A stretch of 64,000 nucleotides of DNA from Branchiostoma floridae (lineage: Eukaryota; Chordata; Leptocardii; Amphioxiformes; Branchiostomatidae): contig NC_049992.1 of NCBI RefSeq assembly GCF_000003815.2, positions 17,390,134 to 17,454,133 on the forward strand, in the 5' to 3' direction. Position 1 is the stretch's first letter. The number at the start of each line of letters is the position of its first letter. Both the position numbers and the translations under genes were made by a program. Below are positions 2,931 to 60,900 of the stretch, in pieces. The notes beneath the pieces are model-generated. The model was not told where the DNA came from. It was given only the letters and a program-made list of their open reading frames with translations, and ran no database searches.

Positions 2931-4571
2931 CCTATGTGCCACAAGGTACTACATGTACAACGCCAGCAACAACATTTCTATGGCCCTCATTGACAAACAT
3001 GCAATTTAGATGATAAGAGGGTCCTTGAACAGATAAGGTTTTCCATGTCCTAAGGATTAGATCTGTAATCAGTGTGAAGGAATAATCAACGGATTGATCT
3101 TAGGGTAGATTAAAGAGGAAATGAAAGTTCGGGAAAAGGATTAAGGTACCGATAGCGACCCTGTATACATAGTCACTGGCTTCCCTGTCTATGCAAAATA
3201 TAAACCATACGGGCCAATGTAAAGTCCGTCATAACATTCAACCATTGGCATCGAATTGTAAATCGTTGCCTGTCCATTCCCTTAAATAATACTCCGTTGC
3301 CTACCCCTCTTCCTTCCTCCATGGACCGTTCCCTGCATGATAGTTTTGGCTAGTCACAATGATTGTGACACGTGCCCGTACTACTACAGTTTCTAGATCT
3401 GTTTCTTTACTGTGTTTCGTACGGACCGGTGTTTTGCCTGACTCTATTCCACACTTAAAGCTTAAGCATTCCAGATTTGATCCGAAGAACCTGCTGTAAG
3501 TATATCACCTCTTTTCTCTAGTTTTTCTGTCAGAGTTCGAGACTTACAGGCTTACGCGAATACGCAAGTGACTAGGTAGCCCTTCATTCTGATTTTGAAG
3601 CTGAGCTTCGTATGCTTATGTTTCCAGGTATACAGGCCCTAGTATTGTGAGTGCCGCAATTGTGTGTGCTACCCTGACGAGGACATCTTATTCTGATCTA
3701 GCTAGACATTTCAATTCTTTGAAGGTTTCCATTTTTGTTCCTTTAAGCTATTAGGTTTCCTATCAAGATGCGCAAACGTATGTAGCTTTCATCATTTTGC
3801 ACATAAAAGACAAGTGGTAAAAAATAACAGTAGGGGCAATAAAACCAGATGACGTCATTCATATCTTCCAAGAAATCATATGTAGAATTCATTCATGCCC
3901 ATCTATCAATATTCTTTACGCCCCTATTCTTTCAATCTTTACTGTTGAGAAAGCAATGCAAGGTAAAAATGCCAATTTATCGATGTAGAAAACCTTAATT
4001 TCTATGTCCCCCTAGTATTTCAGTTAGATAATTTAAGATGCGGTTACTGTAAGTGTTTCCTAGAATCCTTCGCCAGACACACGGGTGAAATTTATGTATC
4101 TCAGCAAGGAGCGAGTGATTGATGACCGGGTGTAGGGCCGTTATAGAGGGCGCCGAAACCTCATCTCTGTTTCCATTAAAGTGAAATAGAAAGTTCAAGT
4201 GCTTGCCCCTGCCTTTCCTTTTGTCATTGTTACAGGCCTATTGTGGTGACAGTAAAGTCTGGTGGAATGGGAAGATGCGTATATATTGGGGTGGCGCAAT
4301 GGTTTATGGTAACAACATATAACAAACTCTGTTGTCGATGGGACGTAAAAGTCTATGGGTGCAGTATTGTACTATATCATATGTGCGGTGCAGTACAGTA
4401 CATTTCCAGCTTGGGTTTGTTCGTGCGTATGAAGCATGCTAAAGTCTATGGCGCTTCCGTCTCTATGTATCATACATTTTTGTCTTGACGCCAGCATCTA
4501 TAATCAGGCCTAAAGCTAAGGCTATGCAGTGAAATGCACCTTCTCAGACCGCCCTAGCGATGTAGAGTCTT
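2931..4571. other. No gene recognised
   Basis: About 1.6 kb without a recognisable gene or repeat. Open frames are under 85 codons and show no motifs. Confidence 0.45.
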
Positions 4572-4931: not shown

Positions 4932-7610
4932 TTACCACCATGTGCTCAGGGGTTGTCTTTTGTCTCGTGTTTTCGCAAGCTCATTTATCCTAGATTTGAA
5001 CTCAATGTTGTTGTATGATGTCGTTGTGTTTGGCAATGTGTTATAGGTTTTGATGCATCTGTAGCCAAATGTCCTTGTTTTAGCGTTTGTTTTGGGTTTT
5101 GATTGAGTGAATGCTCCTCTAGTAGACAGCCTCGTGTGATGCTCATGTATGGATTGAATTGTTTGTAATTGCTTGAAGATGCATTGGGGTTGCCTTTCCT
5201 TAACAATTTTGTGGAATGTACATAGAGTATTTGTGAAGAGTCTTTCTTTGACGGTTTGCCACTTTAACTGCATGTGTAGGTCTTCCAGGTTGGTGTCAAA
5301 GGGTTTGTTTGTGGCCAGGCGAGCAGCGCGATTCTGGACCACCTGAAGACCATCTATGTGTGTCTGTGGTGCAGAGGATAGCAGCACTGAGCCGTAGTCA
5401 ATGTGTGACAAAACCAGAGCCTGAATAAAAGATCTCAATATACTTTTTGTGAAGTACTTCCTGTGTCGTCTTATTGTGGCTAGTATGCCTGCCATTTTAT
5501 TCTTAGTTTTGTCAATATGCGATCCCCATGTGAGACGTTGGTCTATAGTGAGACCTAACAGTTCAGCCTGTTCTACATGTGTAATGTCTGTTCCATCTAT
5601 TCTTAGTTCTAATTTGGGATTACGTTTTAGTTTTTGTTGCGTACCCATCATGATTGATTTAGTTTTTCCAATATTGAGAACAAGATGATTAGTTTGTACC
5701 CAATCCCAGATTCGCTCCAAGTCAGTCTGCAATTTGTATTTCAATTTTGCGACGGTGGGAGCCGATGCTGAGGGCGTTGAATCATCAGCGTACATGACTA
5801 CTATACTATTTGTAACTGCGGGGAGATCATTGACAAATATAGAGAAAAGCAATGGACCCAGGCAGCTGCCTTGGGGAACGCCACACCTGGATTCTTTATA
5901 AGAGGAAAAACTACCGTTAACGAATACAGCTTGTTTCCTGTTGCCAAGATAACTCTGTACCCACTTGATCGCCGATTCCTCAAAACCATAGCTCTTAAGC
6001 TTGGCTAAACAAATATCGTGGTTAATGACATCAAATGCCGCGCTAAAATCTAGCATAACGGCGCCAACCAAATTCCCTTTATCTATCTCCCCCAACCAGT
6101 AGTCAGACATTTGTATAAGGGCACTAGCTGTAGAGTGTGATTTTCTATACGCATGTTGGTTTTCGGAAATTATGTCATTGGAAACAAGGTAAGATTGAAT
6201 TTGTTTCTGGCATATCCTTTCCATGACCTTGCTAATTGCTGGTAACAGGCTGATGGGGCGACTGTTAGGTCCGCTAAGCGGGGTGGATTTATTCTTTATA
6301 AGTGGTAGAACCTTTGCTATCTTCCATTGTGAAGGGAAGATGCCTCGCCTGATGGAACAGTTAAATATGTGACATAATGGGGGAGCAATGTGATCGGCGC
6401 AAAGTTTCAAGAAAGTGTTGTCAACATTGTCGTGGCCAGTAGCATTACCTGGGGGCAGTGCTTTCAACAAAGCGTGCACCTGCTCGACAGTTACATATTG
6501 AAAGGAGAAGGAACAGTTCTTATTAGCCATGATATATTCTTCTATGGGAGCTACTGAGTTCGGTATGTCCGGGTTATCATCTTTGGAGAGTTTTTGTATT
6601 TTTTCAATGAAATATTCGTTGAAATATTCAGCGATTTCAGCTGGTTTTGTCAGTATTTGTCCGTCCACTTCAATGGAATTCGGTGCACTTGAATTGTTTT
6701 TACCTAACATTCCGTTAACAACTTTCCAGAGTTGCTTGCTGTCTTTAGTGCTACTGCATAATTCAATTTGTTCCCTGTAGAAGGCTTTCTTCCTCTTTCT
6801 GTTTTCATTTACTACTAAATTCCTGAGTCTTTTGTAGATCTTGTGGTCTGATTCCATTCCCGACACCTGTGCTTCACGCTTTGCGTTGTCACGCTGTGCC
6901 ATGAGTTCTCGAAGGTCGCCGTCTACCCACTGGGCGGGCGACGCCCTTACTGAACACTTTCTGACAGGAGCGTGTTTGTCGCATATCTCTGTGAAAAGAG
7001 CCATGAAACACTCCAAAGCGTCATCTACACATTCTTTATTTTGCACTAGGTGCCATGGAACAGACAAGATATCTAACAGGAATTCATCTAGGTTGAATCG
7101 TTTATACGAACGTTTTTGTACGATTTTCGGTTGGCCCTTTGGAACTTTCGTTTTGCGAGTTGTGTGTATAAGATTGTGGTCTGAACATCCTAGAGGGACG
7201 GACTGTGTGCTTGTTAGTTTTTCAGGCCTGTTTGAAAAAATTAGATCTATACAAGAAGAGTTTACTGGACCTTTGGAAGTCTTGACTATTCTAGTTGCTT
7301 GATTAACCATTTGTTTAATATTCAATGCAGTCGACTCTAGGTAAAGTTTGTCTCTTAAGGTACAGGTCATGTTTGTCCAGTTTATATTAAAATCACCTAG
7401 TATCAATACTTCCTGTTCTGTATTTGTCGCCAAATCAAATGCCTGTATGATTCTGTTGAGGTAGTCCAACTTGGCACTTGGAGGCCTGTATAGGCATCCT
7501 ACCAAGATTGGCTGTGTGTGTGGAATGTGTATTTGCGCCCAGATAAGTTCAATTTCGGGGGTTTCCAAGTCAAACCGTCTTTTATACGGAATATTGTTTT
7601 TTATGTACAT
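4932..7610 (-). CDS. Non-LTR retrotransposon ORF2, main part: endonuclease C-terminal part plus reverse transcriptase
   Basis: This 892-codon open frame encodes most of the replication protein of a LINE. The start of the frame holds the second half of an APE-type endonuclease: YRPP, then GDFN, then CSDHNLI. A linker follows, then reverse transcriptase motifs: SRPISLLP, the LDFSAAFD aspartate block, GVPQGSCLGPLLF and the catalytic YADD. The C-terminus (FGYRCIKTYNTLP near the end) is typical of CR1/L2/Jockey-related LINEs. There is no RNase H domain and no C-terminal cysteine motif, unlike the LINE fragments in receptor intron 1. The frame has no internal stop. The endonuclease N-terminal half lies in the upstream frame (7601-8152), offset by two bases, so this copy is broken by one small indel near 7608-7620. 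The ATG at 7610 is internal to the endonuclease and is not a natural start. Clade assignment (CR1/L2/Crack-like) is inferred from domain order. Confidence 0.9.
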   Translation of the reverse strand: MYIKNNIPYKRRFDLETPEIELIWAQIHIPHTQPILVGCLYRPPSAKLDYLNRIIQAFDLATNTEQEVLILGDFNINWTNMTCTLRDKLYLESTALNIKQMVNQATRIVKTSKGPVNSSCIDLIFSNRPEKLTSTQSVPLGCSDHNLIHTTRKTKVPKGQPKIVQKRSYKRFNLDEFLLDILSVPWHLVQNKECVDDALECFMALFTEICDKHAPVRKCSVRASPAQWVDGDLRELMAQRDNAKREAQVSGMESDHKIYKRLRNLVVNENRKRKKAFYREQIELCSSTKDSKQLWKVVNGMLGKNNSSAPNSIEVDGQILTKPAEIAEYFNEYFIEKIQKLSKDDNPDIPNSVAPIEEYIMANKNCSFSFQYVTVEQVHALLKALPPGNATGHDNVDNTFLKLCADHIAPPLCHIFNCSIRRGIFPSQWKIAKVLPLIKNKSTPLSGPNSRPISLLPAISKVMERICQKQIQSYLVSNDIISENQHAYRKSHSTASALIQMSDYWLGEIDKGNLVGAVMLDFSAAFDVINHDICLAKLKSYGFEESAIKWVQSYLGNRKQAVFVNGSFSSYKESRCGVPQGSCLGPLLFSIFVNDLPAVTNSIVVMYADDSTPSASAPTVAKLKYKLQTDLERIWDWVQTNHLVLNIGKTKSIMMGTQQKLKRNPKLELRIDGTDITHVEQAELLGLTIDQRLTWGSHIDKTKNKMAGILATIRRHRKYFTKSILRSFIQALVLSHIDYGSVLLSSAPQTHIDGLQVVQNRAARLATNKPFDTNLEDLHMQLKWQTVKERLFTNTLCTFHKIVKERQPQCIFKQLQTIQSIHEHHTRLSTRGAFTQSKPKTNAKTRTFGYRCIKTYNTLPNTTTSYNNIEFKSRINELAKTRDKRQPLSTWW

Positions 7611-8152
7611 GGCGACACCCCTCCTTTGTTATTACGGTCTTTGCGTAAGATAGTGTAATCGCCGGCATTAAGCGCTCCGTCATACACACTGTTGTCTAAG
7701 TGTGATTCAGAAATTGCGAGAATGTGTAGGTTGTTCGTGTACAATACATTAGCGATCTCTTGAACCTTATTACGTAAGCTGTTAATATTTATATGGCCTA
7801 TATGCAGTCCTTTACGTGCCAAATTCAGGTCTATGGGTCCAGGGTTCGTCTGGACATCTCCAGCCAGCAGCAAGGCCAGTGTCGCCAGGAGTTTAGACAC
7901 ATTTTTCAGATGATGGCTCGATGTTGATGGGTTAGTGTCTCTAACTTCAGTGTTGCGCTCAGATGTAGCAACGTTGCTGACAGCGTAGATTCCGCACAGA
8001 GCGAGGGATGGGGGTCGACGTGGTGCAATCTGCCATCTGTCCGTCGATTTCGCTTTACTTGACTCAAATGTGCAGCTGGCTTTAGGTAATAAAGCTATTG
8101 TAATTACAGCCAAGAGCTGCACGATCACTAACATTTTTTCTAGTAATGACAT
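7601..8152 (-). pseudogene. LINE ORF2, N-terminal part: signal-peptide-like leader, 2A-like peptide, start of APE endonuclease (frameshifted at its end)
   Basis: The 183-codon frame opens with a signal-peptide-like stretch (hydrophobic run at about residues 7-22, KASC at 24-27). A short Ser/Thr/Pro-rich spacer and a second hydrophobic patch (LLATLALLLAG, 88-98) lead to GDVQTNPGP at residues 98-106. That is a 2A-like ribosome-skipping motif, with Q where most active 2A peptides have E. The endonuclease begins at once: NINSLRNKV and the catalytic SESHLD. Known family facts: several amphioxus and sea-urchin LINEs carry N-terminal 2A sequences, and some are preceded by signal sequences. The frame shifts by two bases relative to 4932-7610 near codon 178 and stops. 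That is why I call it a broken part of one original ORF and not a separate ORF1. I chose the ATG at 8152 because it gives the leader; an upstream start cannot be excluded. Confidence 0.8.
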
Positions 8153-8748: not shown

Positions 8749-8970
8749 TGTGCGGCACTGCGGGGTTCGAAAGATTACTCAAAGAATTTCAGAGTAAACG
8801 AACACATTTTCTTACATTTTGTGTATTTTGTTGTCTTCTAAGTCATACTTTTACTTATTACGCAATATCTAAATCTAAAAAAAAAAATCGTCGAATATAG
8901 CACAACAGTGCCGCAGTGAACGAACCCCGCAGTGCCGCAACGGTGCCCCAGGTACAGTGAGAAACAAACC
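8749..8970. mobile_element. Palindromic MITE, family M1, copy 3 (right part)
   Basis: Starts TGCGGCACTGCGGGGTTCGAAAG, keeps the family interior (TTACGCAATATC) and ends GTGCCCCAGGTACAGTGAGA. The left TIR tip is missing and is probably the stub at 4572-4601. Confidence 0.6.
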
Positions 8971-11386: not shown

Positions 11387-11393
11387 TTTACAG
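11387..11393. repeat. Left target-site duplication TTTACAG
   Basis: TTTACAG directly abuts the left end (TAGGGAGGGGTGTTA) of the DNA transposon. The identical 7 bases directly follow the right end at 15580-15586. Confidence 0.85.
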
Positions 11394-12040
11394 TAGGGAG
11401 GGGTGTTATTTCACGAAAATTATCAGATTGAACTTTAGCCCTGATTTTCCCATGCGTCCATGTCTTGGAACGACATTCATGTAAAAAAGTAAGAAGTCCA
11501 GCCCGAAAACCCCCCCCTACCCTGAAAATTACTTTTTCAACCCTGAAAACATGTGTTTTTTGGCTTTTTTTTAAACATCTACTCCTTTTGATTAAGTAAG
11601 ACGTAGAAAAATGTTCCTGACAGAGCCTTTAATGGTTATAATGTAGCATGCCATGCCAAGGGAAAACTTTGCACTGCAAACAGTGTTGTGTGAAGGTCAT
11701 TTTGTAGGTCAAAGGTAACCAAAATGGGGAAAAAATGCCAATTTTCATGCAAAAATTGACGACTTTCACACATTTCTCAAAGTTCAAAGAAGAAACATGT
11801 TTATTATGAGCTCACTGGCTCCTCTGCTGTGTATCATGTCACGAGAATAGTTTGTGTGATACATAAAGTCACATAGGCTTCCATCGAATATTTCGAACAT
11901 ACTCTGTGCATGCCGACTGTGGCACGATCGAACATTCGAATACCTGATTCGGACGTTGGAACATTTCTGCTGTAACTACAGGTATCCATAACAGAATTCA
12001 ACATAACATCGTCAACCACAGTCATAATGTTCATTGTGGT

Positions 12041-14893
12041 TCACTTTGATACATGTAGATCATTAACGACTGCGTCAAAGTCTTCCCAGGACACGTCTGC
12101 TCTGCAACTTATCTTTGACAAATAGGTCTTCAAGTTGTTGGCATATCTAGACAAAGACAGATTCTTGTATTTCTCCTTTAGCTTGAACAGAGGAGAAGTC
12201 TTGGGCAAAGACAGACTGGTAGCCTTGCTGTACCTAATTTCAAGATACAGCCGGTCCACTTTGGCTTCCTCAGATAAAGTTGACTGCGTGAATTTGTCAA
12301 CCTCCTCTGGTGTCGTGAAGGGACCACCCATGGACTTCAGCTTGTGCAAATCTGCATTCCGTTTTCGATCCAGGTCCTCATTCTGAGCTTCTTTCACGCT
12401 GAGTCCCTTCTCTTCTAGCTTCTGCTGTGAATCCTTCCAACTCTTCCACAGGGCTACGAGCTTACCGTCTTGCCTAACCAGGTCACGGAATTTGTCCATT
12501 TCGTCTGCTGGCTTGAGTTCAATCAGGTCGACTGACTTCGCCTTCACAATGCTTCTACTTGCAGCATCCAACTTACCAGCTCCTCGGACGGACAACTCAT
12601 GCTGGAACGATCCAACGTGCCTCTCAGCAGCAATGTTGTTGATTGGTGCTTGCTTCAACTTAGCTTGATTCTTTCTGCTAACTAGGAGTTCACTTGTTTC
12701 GTCATATTCTCCAAACCCAAATACGTTTCCCCTTTGTCTATGGAACCCTTCGGCGAGTTTTGGTAGCGCAAGGGAAGCAACTTTGACAATTCTGTCTGAA
12801 TGTTCTTTCACAACATCGGCAACAGCTGAGAGAATCTCTTCACTGTACTTGCAGTTCTGGAACAACTCTGTAGTTGTGAATCCAAAGGCTGGCTTGGAAG
12901 TGTCCAGAAGTTCCCGTGGATTAGTCGTTGTCAGATCATGGTACAGTTCCTTCATGTGAAGTGTGAGTCTACCGTAGTCGATAGTTGTCGACGTGGTGAT
13001 CGCTAGGAAAGGCTCTATCAAATGGACACCGAACAACGCACCTACTGCTAGGTGCACCTTCAGAAACTCAACTCCTTCAAATGTCCTCACAATGCAGGCC
13101 AGAGTGTTAGTGACATGTTCATACTTTGCAAGGAAGGACCAGATGTAGGGATCAAGGTACAGAATGACGGCACAAAGGTACACAAAACGATTGAAACGTT
13201 CCTTCCTGAACCCTACTGCAAGATTCTTCTTAGGGGACATATGGATGGAGAACTGTGCACTCTGGTTCCATGCCTTATGGTTAAAATCGGGACTGAACAG
13301 ATTGGTAACACAGTGGATGAATTGCTCAGTGACACTGTTGTGTTGGTTTGTTGCAGTTACCAGGAACATACTGAAAATCTTCTCTGAGCCTATACCCTGT
13401 TCGATGGCTGCAAAGAGATTGATAAGTTCACGGTTGAACATCAGCACAGGATGCGTGTGGCAGAGAAGGTGGTCCGGTATGTGGTCGGTGCCAAGCTCTA
13501 GAGCCACCATTTCTTCAATGCCGAAGTTGTGACTCACGCCATCAGTGAGCTTGAAAGTGACCTTCTCTTGTATATCCTTGGCAGTGTACTTACCATTACT
13601 TACAACAGATAGAATGTTCAGGACTGTGATTCTTAGCTGGGTGAGGTTCTCTCTAGTCTCAGAGGAAATCGGAAGCGTGGGGAAGGCACGGTATTTGCCA
13701 TTGATCGTGATGCCCTGGACGCTAAATGATCCACATCCCTTCTTCTTGCTTCCATCATCATGGTAGGTGATGACAACGTCGGAACTCGACATCATCAACT
13801 CAACAATTTCTGAAAGGGCGAGGGCCAGAATAGCTTTTCCTGCCTGACGTAGCTGTGAATCATGTGGTACAGTGTCCAGGTCAATTACATCGTCATCCTC
13901 TGAGTGGTACTTCCACTTTCTTCCAAACAGAATGTTTGCAGTCTCCACAATGCCTGCTATAGCCTGGCTGTATGAACAGTGGTAAACACTGACGAGTTTG
14001 TCCGCACACCTATAGAATTCTGGCTTGACTTTACGAGCAGATATACGTAGATGCTGATAGCACTGTGGCATTACATTGCTATCACTCTCATTGCCGCCAG
14101 TGTCCGTGGCAACAGGTACAACTTTTCTCCTTTTGGACTGGATTTCCTCAGTTGTAGGATCATATGTACTATCTGCTGTAACATCTTCCTCTGATGTACG
14201 GTCAGTAGATACGGCAGTGGTCTCTGTGGTCACCTCCTCCATAGCTTCATCGTATGTTGACCCAAGTAACGTTCTGTCAGCCTTCTTGCGCTCTTCTTCT
14301 TTCTTCTGCCTGGCTTGCAAGGCCTTTTCCCTTGCATTTTTTTGTTGCATTGTTCTCTCCCACTTTCTATCAACCTGCTCCTCGCAGTAGCCCTTGCGCT
14401 CATTGCGCATGGAATTCAAGAATTCCCATTCCTCGTCTCCCATCTTGACCCCAAACGTGTTTTCCTGGGACTCCCGTGCCGATTTGTTCTCGCAAAAAAT
14501 GTCAAACAGCTTGTCCATATCACCATTGTATTCATTCATGTCACTTTTCCATTTCTCACTTCGTTTGCACTGTGGCCGATTTATATTGGTCAGGAAGCGG
14601 GTGTAAAGTGCTTCTATCCTGCTGGCAATGTATTGCTCCCCAATGGTATATATGTTGCAGAACAACCAGTGGTCTTTTAATGCAGAGGCGAGAATCTTTG
14701 CAGCCATAGCTCTGGTTCGCTGGACTTTACCTGCTCTTGCAGGGCGAAGTAGATACATCATACATTCGATGATGTCTTTCTTCCGTGGCAAGACACCATT
14801 AGGGAGATCTGACGCTTCCATATACGTTACCCCTGCAAGTTCTTTCTTGGCTTTTGACCTTGTACAAACTTCCGCCATTGTTAATTGTTTCAA
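12041..14893 (-). CDS. Candidate transposase of an unassigned DNA-transposon family (950 aa, intact)
   Basis: This single-exon protein is encoded between the TIRs of the 4186-bp element. Residues 1-140 are mixed helical. Residues 140-210 are charged and probably coiled coil (run of K/E/R at 185-206). Residues 215-265 are acidic and Thr-rich, ending in SKRRKV, a possible nuclear localisation signal. The likely catalytic core starts at about 370. ITYHDDGS (D379/D380) looks like the first acidic strand of an RNase H-like fold. LTDGVSHN (D451) and CHTH (C478, H481) resemble the second Asp and the C-x2-H motif of hAT/KDZ/MULE-type transposases. NNIAAERHVGSF (E757) would supply the last acid, after a large helical insertion, as in hAT. 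The C-terminus (800-950) is Lys-rich. There is no BED zinc finger visible. The motif reading is inference, but TIRs plus TSD make mobility well supported. The second ATG (codon 6) could also be the start. Confidence 0.75.
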   Translation of the reverse strand: MKQLTMAEVCTRSKAKKELAGVTYMEASDLPNGVLPRKKDIIECMMYLLRPARAGKVQRTRAMAAKILASALKDHWLFCNIYTIGEQYIASRIEALYTRFLTNINRPQCKRSEKWKSDMNEYNGDMDKLFDIFCENKSARESQENTFGVKMGDEEWEFLNSMRNERKGYCEEQVDRKWERTMQQKNAREKALQARQKKEEERKKADRTLLGSTYDEAMEEVTTETTAVSTDRTSEEDVTADSTYDPTTEEIQSKRRKVVPVATDTGGNESDSNVMPQCYQHLRISARKVKPEFYRCADKLVSVYHCSYSQAIAGIVETANILFGRKWKYHSEDDDVIDLDTVPHDSQLRQAGKAILALALSEIVELMMSSSDVVITYHDDGSKKKGCGSFSVQGITINGKYRAFPTLPISSETRENLTQLRITVLNILSVVSNGKYTAKDIQEKVTFKLTDGVSHNFGIEEMVALELGTDHIPDHLLCHTHPVLMFNRELINLFAAIEQGIGSEKIFSMFLVTATNQHNSVTEQFIHCVTNLFSPDFNHKAWNQSAQFSIHMSPKKNLAVGFRKERFNRFVYLCAVILYLDPYIWSFLAKYEHVTNTLACIVRTFEGVEFLKVHLAVGALFGVHLIEPFLAITTSTTIDYGRLTLHMKELYHDLTTTNPRELLDTSKPAFGFTTTELFQNCKYSEEILSAVADVVKEHSDRIVKVASLALPKLAEGFHRQRGNVFGFGEYDETSELLVSRKNQAKLKQAPINNIAAERHVGSFQHELSVRGAGKLDAASRSIVKAKSVDLIELKPADEMDKFRDLVRQDGKLVALWKSWKDSQQKLEEKGLSVKEAQNEDLDRKRNADLHKLKSMGGPFTTPEEVDKFTQSTLSEEAKVDRLYLEIRYSKATSLSLPKTSPLFKLKEKYKNLSLSRYANNLKTYLSKISCRADVSWEDFDAVVNDLHVSK

Positions 14894-14990
14894 TTAGTAT
14901 GTCGCATGTGAAACTTTGATGTAGGTTTGTGATCGAAACAAAGAAACATCACCTTATATACTTAAGAAAAAATTGTATTTAGTAGGTTCC

Positions 14991-15099
14991 ATTTGAATTT
15001 GCCGCCATTGATTAAAAACGTTTGGCGGGAATCATAGTTCTGGAGTCATAGTAATTCCCGCCAAATTGTGTCATACTTGTCTTGGCGGCAAATTTGAAT
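14991..15099. promoter_or_regulatory. Nested palindrome with paired E2F-like sites upstream of the transposase ORF
   Basis: The inner pair is TTTGGCGGGAA (15021-15031) facing TTCCCGCCAAA (15055-15065), both exact matches to the classic E2F consensus. The outer pair is AATTTGCCGCCA (14996-15007) facing TGGCGGCAAATT (15083-15094). The cluster begins about 100 bases upstream of the ATG at 14893. It could be the transposon's promoter or sub-terminal transposase binding sites. Confidence 0.45.
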
Positions 15100-15579
15100 A
15101 ATAAATGGCAGCTATATGTTGTACTATTTTAAATCTAATGTAATGCATGGGGCTTTGAAAGGCCAAAAGGACATGGGAATCTGTCCAGGAAACCAAAGGA
15201 GAGTAAACTCGGGACAGATTTGACAAAATGTGAAAGTGTTGTGATTTTAAAAAAAGGGCATTTTGTTGACCTTTGACCTACAAAATGACCTTGACATTAG
15301 ACTTTTCATTGTACAAAGTTCTCTTACAATACCACATGACACATATAAGATAATTCAATGGCCCATCTTGGACATATCTGTACATTGTAAGGGAACAAAA
15401 GTGAATAACCTTTGAAATTGCAAAAAAAGACACATTTTCAGGGTTGCAAAAGTAATTTTCAGGGTGGGGGGGGGTTTTTGGATGAAATTTTTTAAAAAAT
15501 TACATAGAAGTGCTTAAAACATCGTGTTGCTTCAGGAAATCAGGGCTATTTTGGTATTTGGTATTAACACCCCTCCCTA

Positions 15580-15586
15580 TTTACAG
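15580..15586. repeat. Right target-site duplication TTTACAG
   Basis: Identical to 11387-11393 and immediately adjacent to the inverted right terminus TAACACCCCTCCCTA. Confidence 0.85.
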
Positions 15587-28764: not shown

Positions 28765-29301
28765 GGCCACAGTAAGTAAATTTTATGGATGACATCCTCT
28801 GCAGACTGCAAAAATAGTGCGATAGGGCGAAAAAAACAAGATGGGTGAAAAAAAACACAAGATGGCTACATTTTCAAAAAAAGGCACAATAAAGTTGTGA
28901 TGACTGTTGTAAAAAGAATTAAAGGGACAAAACATGGTATCAAAGCAACACGGCATCATTCCTGTATTTAAGACATGTACTGGTGTGGTAAAAGTGACAA
29001 TAGTGTGGTAGACTGGCATCACCAACAAAGTTGTCAACCATACTCATAGCTTCCATATTGGTGTCACTTTAACAACTATCCAATAAGTTTCAATTCTACA
29101 ACTACAGTCCTGGGTACCTCGCAAGTGTCACTTCTACAAGTACAATTATTAGGCTACAACACGATATATTTGCTCCTTTTGATACTTTATCGTCATGTTG
29201 ACCATCCCTGCAGAAGAAAAAGATTCTTGTTTTTTTTTCTGAAATCAGGCGAAAATTAATGCGCGCGCTCATGTCATCCATAAAATTTACTTGCTGTGGC
29301 C
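28765..29301. repeat. Foldback element with 31-bp near-perfect TIRs
   Basis: The left arm starts GGCCACAGTAAGTAAATTTT. The right arm, inverted, differs at one base over 31. The interior is purine-rich (GGGCGAAAAAAACAAGATGG). A related fragment beside the gap at 47375-47440 shares AGTAGGTTTTATGAATGATA and the CGCAGACTCCAGAACG block. Non-coding. Confidence 0.65.
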
Positions 29302-37208: not shown

Positions 37209-37760
37209 TAATGAATGAATGAAGACCTTTATTGCACATTTCACTGGGCTAAGTACAGGTCACATGGTAAGAATCACATGTATGTAACAATGGAAACAAT
37301 CATACACATCTATATAATGTGTAGATGTGCGTCTAATCTATTCTAGGACATTCGACTTCCTCTCGCTTCTTGGTAATTGTTTAAATGTAGCTAGCTGTAT
37401 GGTTTGTAAGAGTTGGTTTATCAAAAGCTGTCAGGAATATAAATTTCTCTTTACTATTCAAGTATCTAAAGTGGGGATATTTACTTTTACTAGTAAAATG
37501 TACTTCATCTTCTACTTTCCCTAAAGTACAAAATTAGCATATTCTTTGCTCTAGAGGAGTGTGGTTATGTCTTCCTGATTCGATTCGTAATTTGTGGCAA
37601 CTGATTCTTAGCTTTGCGATGGTAGATCTGTGTCGTACATTGGCAATCTTAAGGTATTCTTCTTCTTTAAAATAATAACATCGCGTTTGTTTTTGACGTT
37701 GTAGCGGCAACGCAGCGTAAGTCGACAGGGGTAATTGTTCATAAAGACTTAAACTCGAAA
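37209..37760 (-). pseudogene. LINE 3' end, minus-strand copy (reverse transcriptase C-terminus and 3' UTR)
   Basis: On the minus strand the frame encodes RHRSTIAKLRIS, then KLRIESGRHNHTPLEQRIC, the conserved region just before the C-terminal cysteine motif of several LINE clades. A 3' UTR follows, ending in GCAATAAAGGTCTTCATTC and (ATTC)n at about 37209-37240. It forms the left arm of a large palindrome with 37929-38376. 5'-truncated and dead. Confidence 0.7.
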
Positions 37761-37928
37761 ACATGGGATTACTCAGTAATTGTCCTTTATGTCTTTGTGC
37801 AAAATATGTTGAAGACTGGTGTGATTGCTCACGATTCTGCATGCAGACACAACACCTCGAGTTGTATGTAGAGAAACTAAAAATAGCGTCTAGAAAGCGT
37901 TTCCCTGTATTTTCTGTGCAGTAGTTTA

Positions 37929-38376
37929 CTACAATCAGTTGCCACAAATTACGAATCGAATCAGGAAGACATAACCACACTCCTCTAGAGCAAAGAGCAT
38001 GCCAATTTTGTAGTTTAGGAAAAGTAGAAGATGAAGTACATTTCACTATGGATTGTCCTTTGTATGATAGCGATAGGAGCATTTTATTTGACTATGTGTT
38101 AAGTAAATATCCCCACTTTAGATACTTGAATAGTAGAGAAATTTATATTCCTGACAGCTTTTGATAAACCAACTCTAACCAACGATACAGCTAGCTACAT
38201 CTATGCAATTACAAAGAAGCGAGAGGAATTCGAATGTCCTAGAATAGATTAGACTCACATCTGCATATATAGATGTGTATGATTGTTTCCATTGTTACAT
38301 ATATGTGATTCTTACCGTGTGACCTATACTTAGCCCAGTGGGGCAAAAATGTGCAATAAAGGTCTTCATTCATTTA
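37929..38376 (+). pseudogene. LINE 3' end, plus-strand copy with C-terminal cysteine motif
   Basis: The translation shows LRIESGRHNHTPLEQRAC, then QFC, EDEVHFTMDCPLYDSDR and a stop after IYIPDSF. This is the C-x2-C...H...C motif of LINE ORF2 C-termini. The tail reads GCAATAAAGGTCTTCATTC at 38350-38370. It is 5'-truncated at about 37929 and near-identical, inverted, to 37209-37602. Confidence 0.75.
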
Positions 38377-57946: not shown

Positions 57947-60900
57947 GAACGAACTTGACCTTGGATTTTTTTTCGTTCAGACAACAAAACTAGTAAAGAT
58001 GTAAACTTCTGCCAATTAACTTTCCCCACTTTCAAGCGGTTGCTGAGATTTCGGCAACTTTATACTTTGGCACCTGCCACTAGGTAGGCCCCGTACAGGG
58101 CTTATAGAACGGGCCATTTAGTGGTCTCATTATCTGATCAAATTCACTATTCTGGTTGCTCTTTTCATTGAAACGGAGACAATCTGTGTCTGTTGTTACG
58201 TTAGGAGTGATTTAGGGTTAGATTCAAGGTTAGTTGCCGCAGAAAAGGGGGGGGGGGTGCGGGTTTCGGGCCAAAGGCGCTTTCACACTAAGTCCCATAG
58301 TTAAGCATAGGGAAAGGCCCAAAGTGGCCGTTGCCATGGCAACGGCCGTCTGACGGTAGAACAAACAGGCTTATTTCAAGGGAGTCTACGCCAGGACCTG
58401 ACATACCAAGCAACTTTGCCCAAATATAACGCTTTTGTCAGTTTTTGGCCAATACCCGTTGCGGTTGAAGGTAGCAGAACACAGTTTTCGGCCTATGGGG
58501 ATTTCTATAGTTAAGGGCCTCAAGGTGACTAGCTTCGACGCAATGAAAAATATAGTAGGGTGCACTTTTGGAATACCAAAATCGGATATGTTTGAGTTGA
58601 AGGTACAAGCCACAATATATTAAAAAACAAAAAAATACTGTCGGCGTATCGTCTTCTCACGCCCTCTTTGAAATGCCCCTCTGCGGAGGTCACAGAACTG
58701 CAGCCGGCTCACGCTAGAAAGGCAGTTGCGTAATGGAGCGCATTTATACACAAAATAGAAAACTTTCACAATCCAAACCATGCAGTCTCAGAGTCGACAC
58801 CTTCCGTGACCACGTAGCACAGGTTATATCTGGCTGCCCCTCAAATAAGGCTTTTTACCTCTCCTTCAACAAGTTTATCCGTACTATTTTATGTACCCGC
58901 GTCATACTCCCCGGGGTTCGCCCACTAATACTGTGTTCTGCTACCTTGAACGAACTTGACCTTGGATTTTTTTTCGTTCAGACAACAAAACTAGTAAAGA
59001 TGTAAACTTCTGCCAATTAACTTTCCCCACTTTCAAGCGGTTGCTGAGATTTCGGCAACTTTATACTTTGGCACCTGCCACTAGGTAGGCCCCGTACAGG
59101 GCTTATAGAACGGGCCATTTAGTGGTCTCATTATCTGATCAAATTCACTATTCTGGTTGCTCTTTTCATTGAAACGGAGACAATCTGTGTCTGTTGTTAC
59201 GTTAGGAGTGATTTAGGGTTAGATTCAAGGTTAGTTGCCGCAGAAAAGGGGGGGGGGGGTGCGGGTTTCGGGCCAAAGGCGCTTTCACACTAAGTCCCAT
59301 AGTTAAGCATAGGGAAAGGCCCAAAGTGGCCGTTGCCATGGCAACGGCCGTCTGACGGTAGAACAAACAGGCTTATTTCAAGGGAGTCTACGCCAGGACC
59401 TGACATACCAAGCAACTTTGCCCAAATATAACGCTTTTGTCAGTTTTTGGCCAATACCCGTTGCGGTTGAAGGTAGCAGAACACAGTTTTCGGCCTATGG
59501 GGATTTCTATAGTTAAGGGCCTCAAGGTGACTAGCTTCGACGCAATGAAAAATATAGTAGGGTGCACTTTTGGAATACCAAAATCGGATATGTTTGAGTT
59601 GAAGGTACAAGCCACAATATATTAAAAAACAAAAAAATACTGTCGGCGTATCGTCTTCTCACGCCCTCTTTGAAATGCCCCTCTGCGGAGGTCACAGAAC
59701 TGCAGCCGGCTCACGCTAGAAAGGCAGTTGCGTAATGGAGCGCATTTATACACAAAATAGAAAACTTTCACAATCCAAACCATGCAGTCTCAGAGTCGAC
59801 ACCTTCCGTGACCACGTAGCACAGGTTATATCTGGCTGCCCCTCAAATAAGGCTTTTTACCTCTCCTTCAACAAGTTTATCCGTACTATTTTATGTACCC
59901 GCGTCATACTCCCCGGGGTTCGCCCACTAATACTGTGTTCTGCTACCTTGAACGAACTTGACCTTGGATTTTTTTTCGTTCAGACAACAAAACTAGTAAA
60001 GATGTAAACTTCTGCCAATTAACTTTCCCCACTTTCAAGCGGTTGCTGAGATTTCGGCAACTTTATACTTTGGCACCTGCCACTAGGTAGGCCCCGTACA
60101 GGGCTTATAGAACGGGCCATTTAGTGGTCTCATTATCTGATCAAATTCACTATTCTGGTTGCTCTTTTCATTGAAACGGAGACAATCTGTGTCTGTTGTT
60201 ACGTTAGGAGTGATTTAGGGTTAGATTCAAGGTTAGTTGCCGCAGAAAAGGGGGGGGGGGGTGCGGGTTTCGGGCCAAAGGCGCTTTCACACTAAGTCCC
60301 ATAGTTAAGCATAGGGAAAGGCCCAAAGTGGCCGTTGCCATGGCAACGGCCGTCTGACGGTAGAACAAACAGGCTTATTTCAAGGGAGTCTACGCCAGGA
60401 CCTGACATACCAAGCAACTTTGCCCAAATATAACGCTTTTGTCAGTTTTTGGCCAATACCCGTTGCGGTTGAACGAACTTGACCTTGGATTTTTTTTCGT
60501 TCAGACAACAAAACTAGTAAAGATGTAAACTTCTGCCAATTAACTTTCCCCACTTTCAAGCGGTTGCTGAGATTTCGGCAACTTTATACTTTGGCACCTG
60601 CCACTAGGTAGGCCCCGTACAGGGCTTATAGAACGGGCCATTTAGTGGTCTCATTATCTGATCAAATTCACTATTCTGGTTGCTCTTTTCATTGAAACGG
60701 AGACAATCTGTGTCTGTTGTTACGTTAGGAGTGATTTAGGGTTAGATTCAAGGTTAGTTGCCGCAGAAAAGGGGGGGGGGGGTGCGGTTTTCGGGCCAAA
60801 GGCGCTTTCACACTAAGTCCCATAGTTAAGCATAGGGAAAGGCCCAAAGTGGCCGTTGCCATGGCAACGGCCGTCTGACGGTAGAACAAACAGGCTTATT

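Follow-up and report, generated by a model that had tools for sequence, protein, structure and literature searches.

A Branchiostoma floridae DNA transposon with 7-bp target-site duplications and a probable hAT-related transposase

A 4186-bp DNA transposon that looks complete, judged by its tips, its flanking duplication and its related copies, lies at positions 11394..15579 of a 64,000-nucleotide stretch of the Branchiostoma floridae genome (the window, contig NC_049992.1, here C14:17390134-17454133). It encodes a long transposase with a predicted Hermes-like catalytic core, and it shares 7-bp target-site duplications (TSDs) with highly diverged relatives elsewhere in the genome. We consider it a cut-and-paste transposon from a deep hAT-related lineage, a reading to which we give a probability of about three in four. 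We file it as a hAT-related lineage, not as canonical hAT, because the 8-bp TSD and the Pfam signature of that superfamily were not found.

The element and its ends

The 15-base tips, TAGGGAGGGGTGTTA on the left (11394..11408, plus strand) and TAACACCCCTCCCTA on the right (15565..15579, minus strand), are complementary at 15 of 15 positions, and TTTACAG abuts the element on both sides (11387..11393 and 15580..15586) as an exact 7-bp match, the only exact repeat there of any length from 3 to 12. An earlier note, made from the letters of this DNA alone, had described a transposon with exactly these tips, length and duplication, and also long imperfect terminal inverted repeats (TIRs). The latter pair element positions 110-333 (11503..11726, plus strand) with 3866-4088 (15259..15481, minus strand) at 71% over 228 columns, so that beyond the perfect tips the inverted likeness of the two ends reaches about 330 bp. 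As a chance control, 1117 Markov-random windows of equal size were searched for inverted tips that match perfectly over 12 bp, lie 0.3-8 kb from each other and are abutted by an exact 7-bp direct repeat, and seven such pairs came up; the real window holds two, one at 1413/8841 and the transposon itself, whose own tips measure 15 bp against the 12 bp asked for.

A dispersed repeat of about 107 bp (11869-11976) sits inside the element, 3' of the open reading frame (ORF). This stretch accounts for 26 of the 57 genome DNA matches listed, at 81-88% identity elsewhere, and the near copy on contig C1, described below, aligns through it.

Target-site duplications across relatives

The 7-bp TSD does not depend on the window copy, because in the searched genome (513 Mb, 431 contigs) of the 11 related elements mapped at both tips, the window element included, 10 carry an exact 7-bp flanking repeat. 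The same ten show no exact repeat of 3-6 or 8-12 bp, and none has a TSD of 8 bp. Their duplications are TTTACAG, GTTCTAG, TTGATAT, CCTATAG, TTTTAAT, CTAAGGC, CTATGAA, GAAATAA, TTTTAAG and CAGTAGT; with both strands read, 15 of the 20 half-sites have T at position 2, giving nTnnnAn. All mapped tips begin with TAG (ten elements have TAGGG or TAGAG, and one has TAGCT and TAGCG), the TAG tip having been part of the search criterion for the C18 element.

How the ends were set bears on this count. Seven elements (C14, C1, C10, C17, C15, C13a and C11) were delimited by tip or inverted-repeat matches with no TSD requirement, and six of them have the 7-bp repeat. The ends of the remaining four (C7, C18, C13b and C10b) came from a finder that demanded a flanking repeat of 5-10 bp or 6-8 bp; finder-derived ends are supported by the alignment of L026 with L027, which begins exactly at both left tips, and by the ends of L031, which lie within one or two bases of those given by its alignment to L030. 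For L026 the finder gave three other pairs, and the TAG-tipped pair was taken from a search that specified TAG tips. Outside the count stand L012, L015-L018, L021-L024, L028, L029, L030 (whose right tip ends in N) and L032-L035, each with an end cut off, not found or not sought; L011 is the same insertion as L010, with which it has its left flank in common.

The exception is the C11 element (L020 1957-5861), which lacks a clean TSD: the match there is ACGTTG, displaced by two bases at the left tip. Imprecise cutting or a later change may lie behind this. Over 3.4 kb, L020 and L019 are nonetheless 99.2% identical.

The transposase

The transposase ORF (12041..14878, minus strand, stop included) is uninterrupted, as the earlier note held, but the 950 codons claimed there count from a TTG; from the first ATG there are 945, and the residue numbers of that note exceed ours by five (its D380 is our D375). 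Its proposed catalytic layout of D380, D451, C478-x2-H481 and E757 is conserved in every aligned relative that covers these residues, and its alternative first aspartate, D379, is not. In ATG numbering, the predicted catalytic residues D375 (13754..13756) and D446 (13541..13543), together with the C473-x2-H476 motif (13451..13462), occur in all nine aligned proteins, and the predicted catalytic E752 (12623..12625) occurs in the eight that reach it, all on the minus strand. The nine include L030 and L031, near-identical copies of one family; the farthest branches share just 12-15% of their core residues with the window protein. The spacing in the window protein is D-71-D-306-E.

An AlphaFold model of the catalytic core, residues 285-830 (12389..14026, minus strand), has a predicted local distance difference test score (pLDDT) of 71.0 and a predicted template modelling score of 0.74, and suggests an RNase H-like fold with a helical insertion. 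D375 falls in model strand 86-95, D446 directly after strand 158-161 and E752 in helix 465-481; from the second Asp to the Glu the chain is predicted to be mostly helical, as in Hermes. In structure searches with this model, used in place of a full-length model built from seven rows (pLDDT 38.9), Hermes ranks first in both Foldseek and VIA, at 9-12% identity over the match. Conserved residues and predicted fold agree with the RNase H-fold transposase with Asp-Asp-Glu (DDE) and CxxH that had been suggested from the letters.

Pfam profiles, as the same note anticipated in calling the protein unfamiliar, do not recognize this lineage. Searches of the window protein against Pfam, PHROGs and PDB sequences returned no transposase, and a Pfam transposase match was found in none of the nine sequences scanned. 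No Pfam hAT dimerisation domain or BED finger appeared in the window protein at E values up to 10, or in eight further sequences at E values up to 5 or 1. The relatives' Pfam matches were discarded as sub-threshold hits to unrelated families, the best being DUF2891 for L026 (E 6e-4, under its cut-off), and PDB profile searches with A2 and A4 gave nothing and four chance-level rows. The window protein has no Pfam THAP match, and a pattern scan of its 16 cysteines found no zinc-finger-like spacing. No relatives of it were found in viral contigs or prokaryote genomes, nor relatives of the L025 protein in viral contigs; A2 offered no segment of sufficient conservation to serve as a query.

Relatives in the genome and recent mobility

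The nearest copy, on C1, is 95.6%, 98.6% and 94.9% identical over three pieces in the DNA search; it is internally deleted, being without about 190 bp of coding sequence, and contains a run of N. Between the two copies there are 6 nonsynonymous and 13 synonymous differences over 349 codons (ratio of nonsynonymous to synonymous rates, dN/dS, 0.13) and 10 and 12 over 496 codons (dN/dS 0.22). The corresponding counts for L019 against L020 are 7 and 3 (dN/dS 0.64), and synonymous sites are saturated in comparison with L021. Recent mobility, proposed earlier from the unbroken frame and clean TSD, is moderately supported, the nearest copy differing by 1.4-5% over its three pieces and being internally deleted. 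The unbroken frame, the clean ends and the small number of amino-acid changes suggest, at the level of sequence, that the window element may be autonomous and active.

Further related pieces on C6, C7, C9, C10, C13, C15 and C17 are older or non-autonomous. Protein searches found relatives at 52% (C9) and 30-31% identity (C11 and C13), and one at 24% (C7). The C7 protein has 38 genome matches, counting itself, and among them are several uninterrupted ORFs, about 1000-1350 codons long. One related family (L029, L030, L031, L032, L034 and L035) is 96.7-99.3% identical over its longest aligned pieces, with TAGC tips and uninterrupted ORFs of about 1000 codons, and is probably young. Two 2.9-kb relatives (L013 2120-5009 and L014 2168-5043) have inverted ends of about 600 bp at 73%, a foldback-like shape, and 7-bp TSDs.

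Relation to known superfamilies

The closest likeness is to Hermes, the hAT transposase of the house fly. Both have a DDE triad in an RNase H core with a helical insertion, predicted in our case, and the catalytic spacings of Hermes are 68 and 324, against 71 and 306 in the window protein. The CxxH after the second Asp (9/9) is likewise a hAT feature, and TAGGG-like tips fit the hAT tip pattern. Hermes differs in its 8-bp TSD; the Pfam hAT signature is missing here, and identity is only 9-12%. These resemblances would also suit an ordinary hAT subfamily that evolves fast, comparable to hAT5, hAT6 or the fungal hAT7, in which the TSD has changed its length and whose escape from Pfam reflects sequence divergence, not a separate branch. 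However, the 7-bp TSD is common to members only 12-15% alike in the core, so it is not one subfamily's late shift, and a hAT dimerisation domain matches none of the nine sequences; we therefore think this explanation unlikely.

The earlier note was right that the duplication is a true 7 bp, but such TSDs are less foreign to other groups than it supposed, and the nearest fold is hAT. In the literature, 7-bp TSDs are given for hAT7 of rust fungi, which has hAT kinship, and for Kyakuja (PMC12730594), for Galileo of the P superfamily, with consensus GTANTAC and long TIRs (PMC4168063), and, as 6-7 bp, for Dada, a DDE group whose second D is followed by an xxH motif (PMC3706591). The likeness of hAT7 to the window element is its 7-bp TSD; by sequence it groups with hAT elements of fungi and plants (Ac, Tam3). 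Membership in another CxxH or DxxH superfamily with 6- to 8-bp TSDs, namely P (Galileo), Dada or KDZ, would account for the duplication, and Galileo adds long TIRs and a consensus that also fits nTnnnAn. We nonetheless set Galileo, Dada and Kyakuja aside because of their motifs, domains or ends, and regard such membership as very improbable. Galileo has a THAP domain and a D(2)H motif, neither of them present here; Dada has DxxH, N-terminal CCCC and C-terminal CCHC zinc fingers, introns in most cases and small nuclear RNA (snRNA) or tRNA gene targets; Kyakuja (KDZ) has CA..TG ends and no TIRs, where this element has TIRs and TAG..CTA ends. An Rfam scan of the window gave no match, which speaks against an RNA-gene target at this insertion, but some Dada families are tabulated with no RNA target in their name (PMC3706591). 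Least probable of all is a domesticated host gene, derived from a transposase and no longer mobile: one uninterrupted copy of the window element's own subfamily was found in the genome, and amino-acid changes relative to the C1 copy are few, yet the gene is still flanked by perfect tips and an exact TSD, and the C1 copy lies elsewhere with a 7-bp TSD of its own.

Returning to the hAT-related lineage, we suggest, tentatively and at less than even odds, that it is an undescribed superfamily sister to hAT, of an age that leaves some branches only 12-15% identical. Its marks would be TAG..CTA tips, insertion with a 7-bp stagger at nTnnnAn, a Hermes-like fold and a DDE core of the CxxH type whose signature is D[GS][ST] / D / CxxH / N-x3-E-x3-G, and it would have several long uninterrupted genes in this genome. 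Searches of open-licence literature, Repbase and Dfam being outside that scope, showed no title or abstract opening that names a hAT-like lineage of animals having 7-bp TSDs; an example command in a Repbase paper selects hAT families annotated '7-bp TSD' (PMC4455052).

Proposed mechanism and meaning

We posit that the transposase would bind the TIRs and subterminal repeats and excise the element by DDE hydrolysis, forming, by analogy with Hermes, a hairpin on the flanking DNA. The ends would then be joined to the two target strands at points 7 bp apart, preferably at nTnnnAn, and gap repair would leave the 7-bp duplication. Each of these biochemical steps is inferred. The geometry of the transposase complex determines the stagger of strand joining, and a diverse lineage that has a hAT-like fold and a stagger of 7 bases instead of 8 is a natural comparison for what sets it. 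Annotation that relies on Pfam profiles also misses these transposase genes, which in this genome are long and uninterrupted and form a diverse group.

Other elements in the window

Two further candidates for TIR and TSD pairs, at 28784-29282 and 37557-37982, were rejected: their flanks continue the inverted repeat, to which the palindromic 'TSD' belongs. The 1413/8841 pair carries the 7-bp direct repeat GTCATAC. Between inverted arms near 1358-1425 and 8841-8913 lie two adjoining ORFs of 892 and 183 aa (4932-8152, minus strand), which read like a non-long-terminal-repeat retrotransposon, with a YADD-like motif seen by eye. Finally, a 476-bp unit that has tips GGTAGCAGAACA and is flanked by TTGAA is present in two copies, at 58470-58945 and 59472-59947, 1002 bp apart and with identical flanks.
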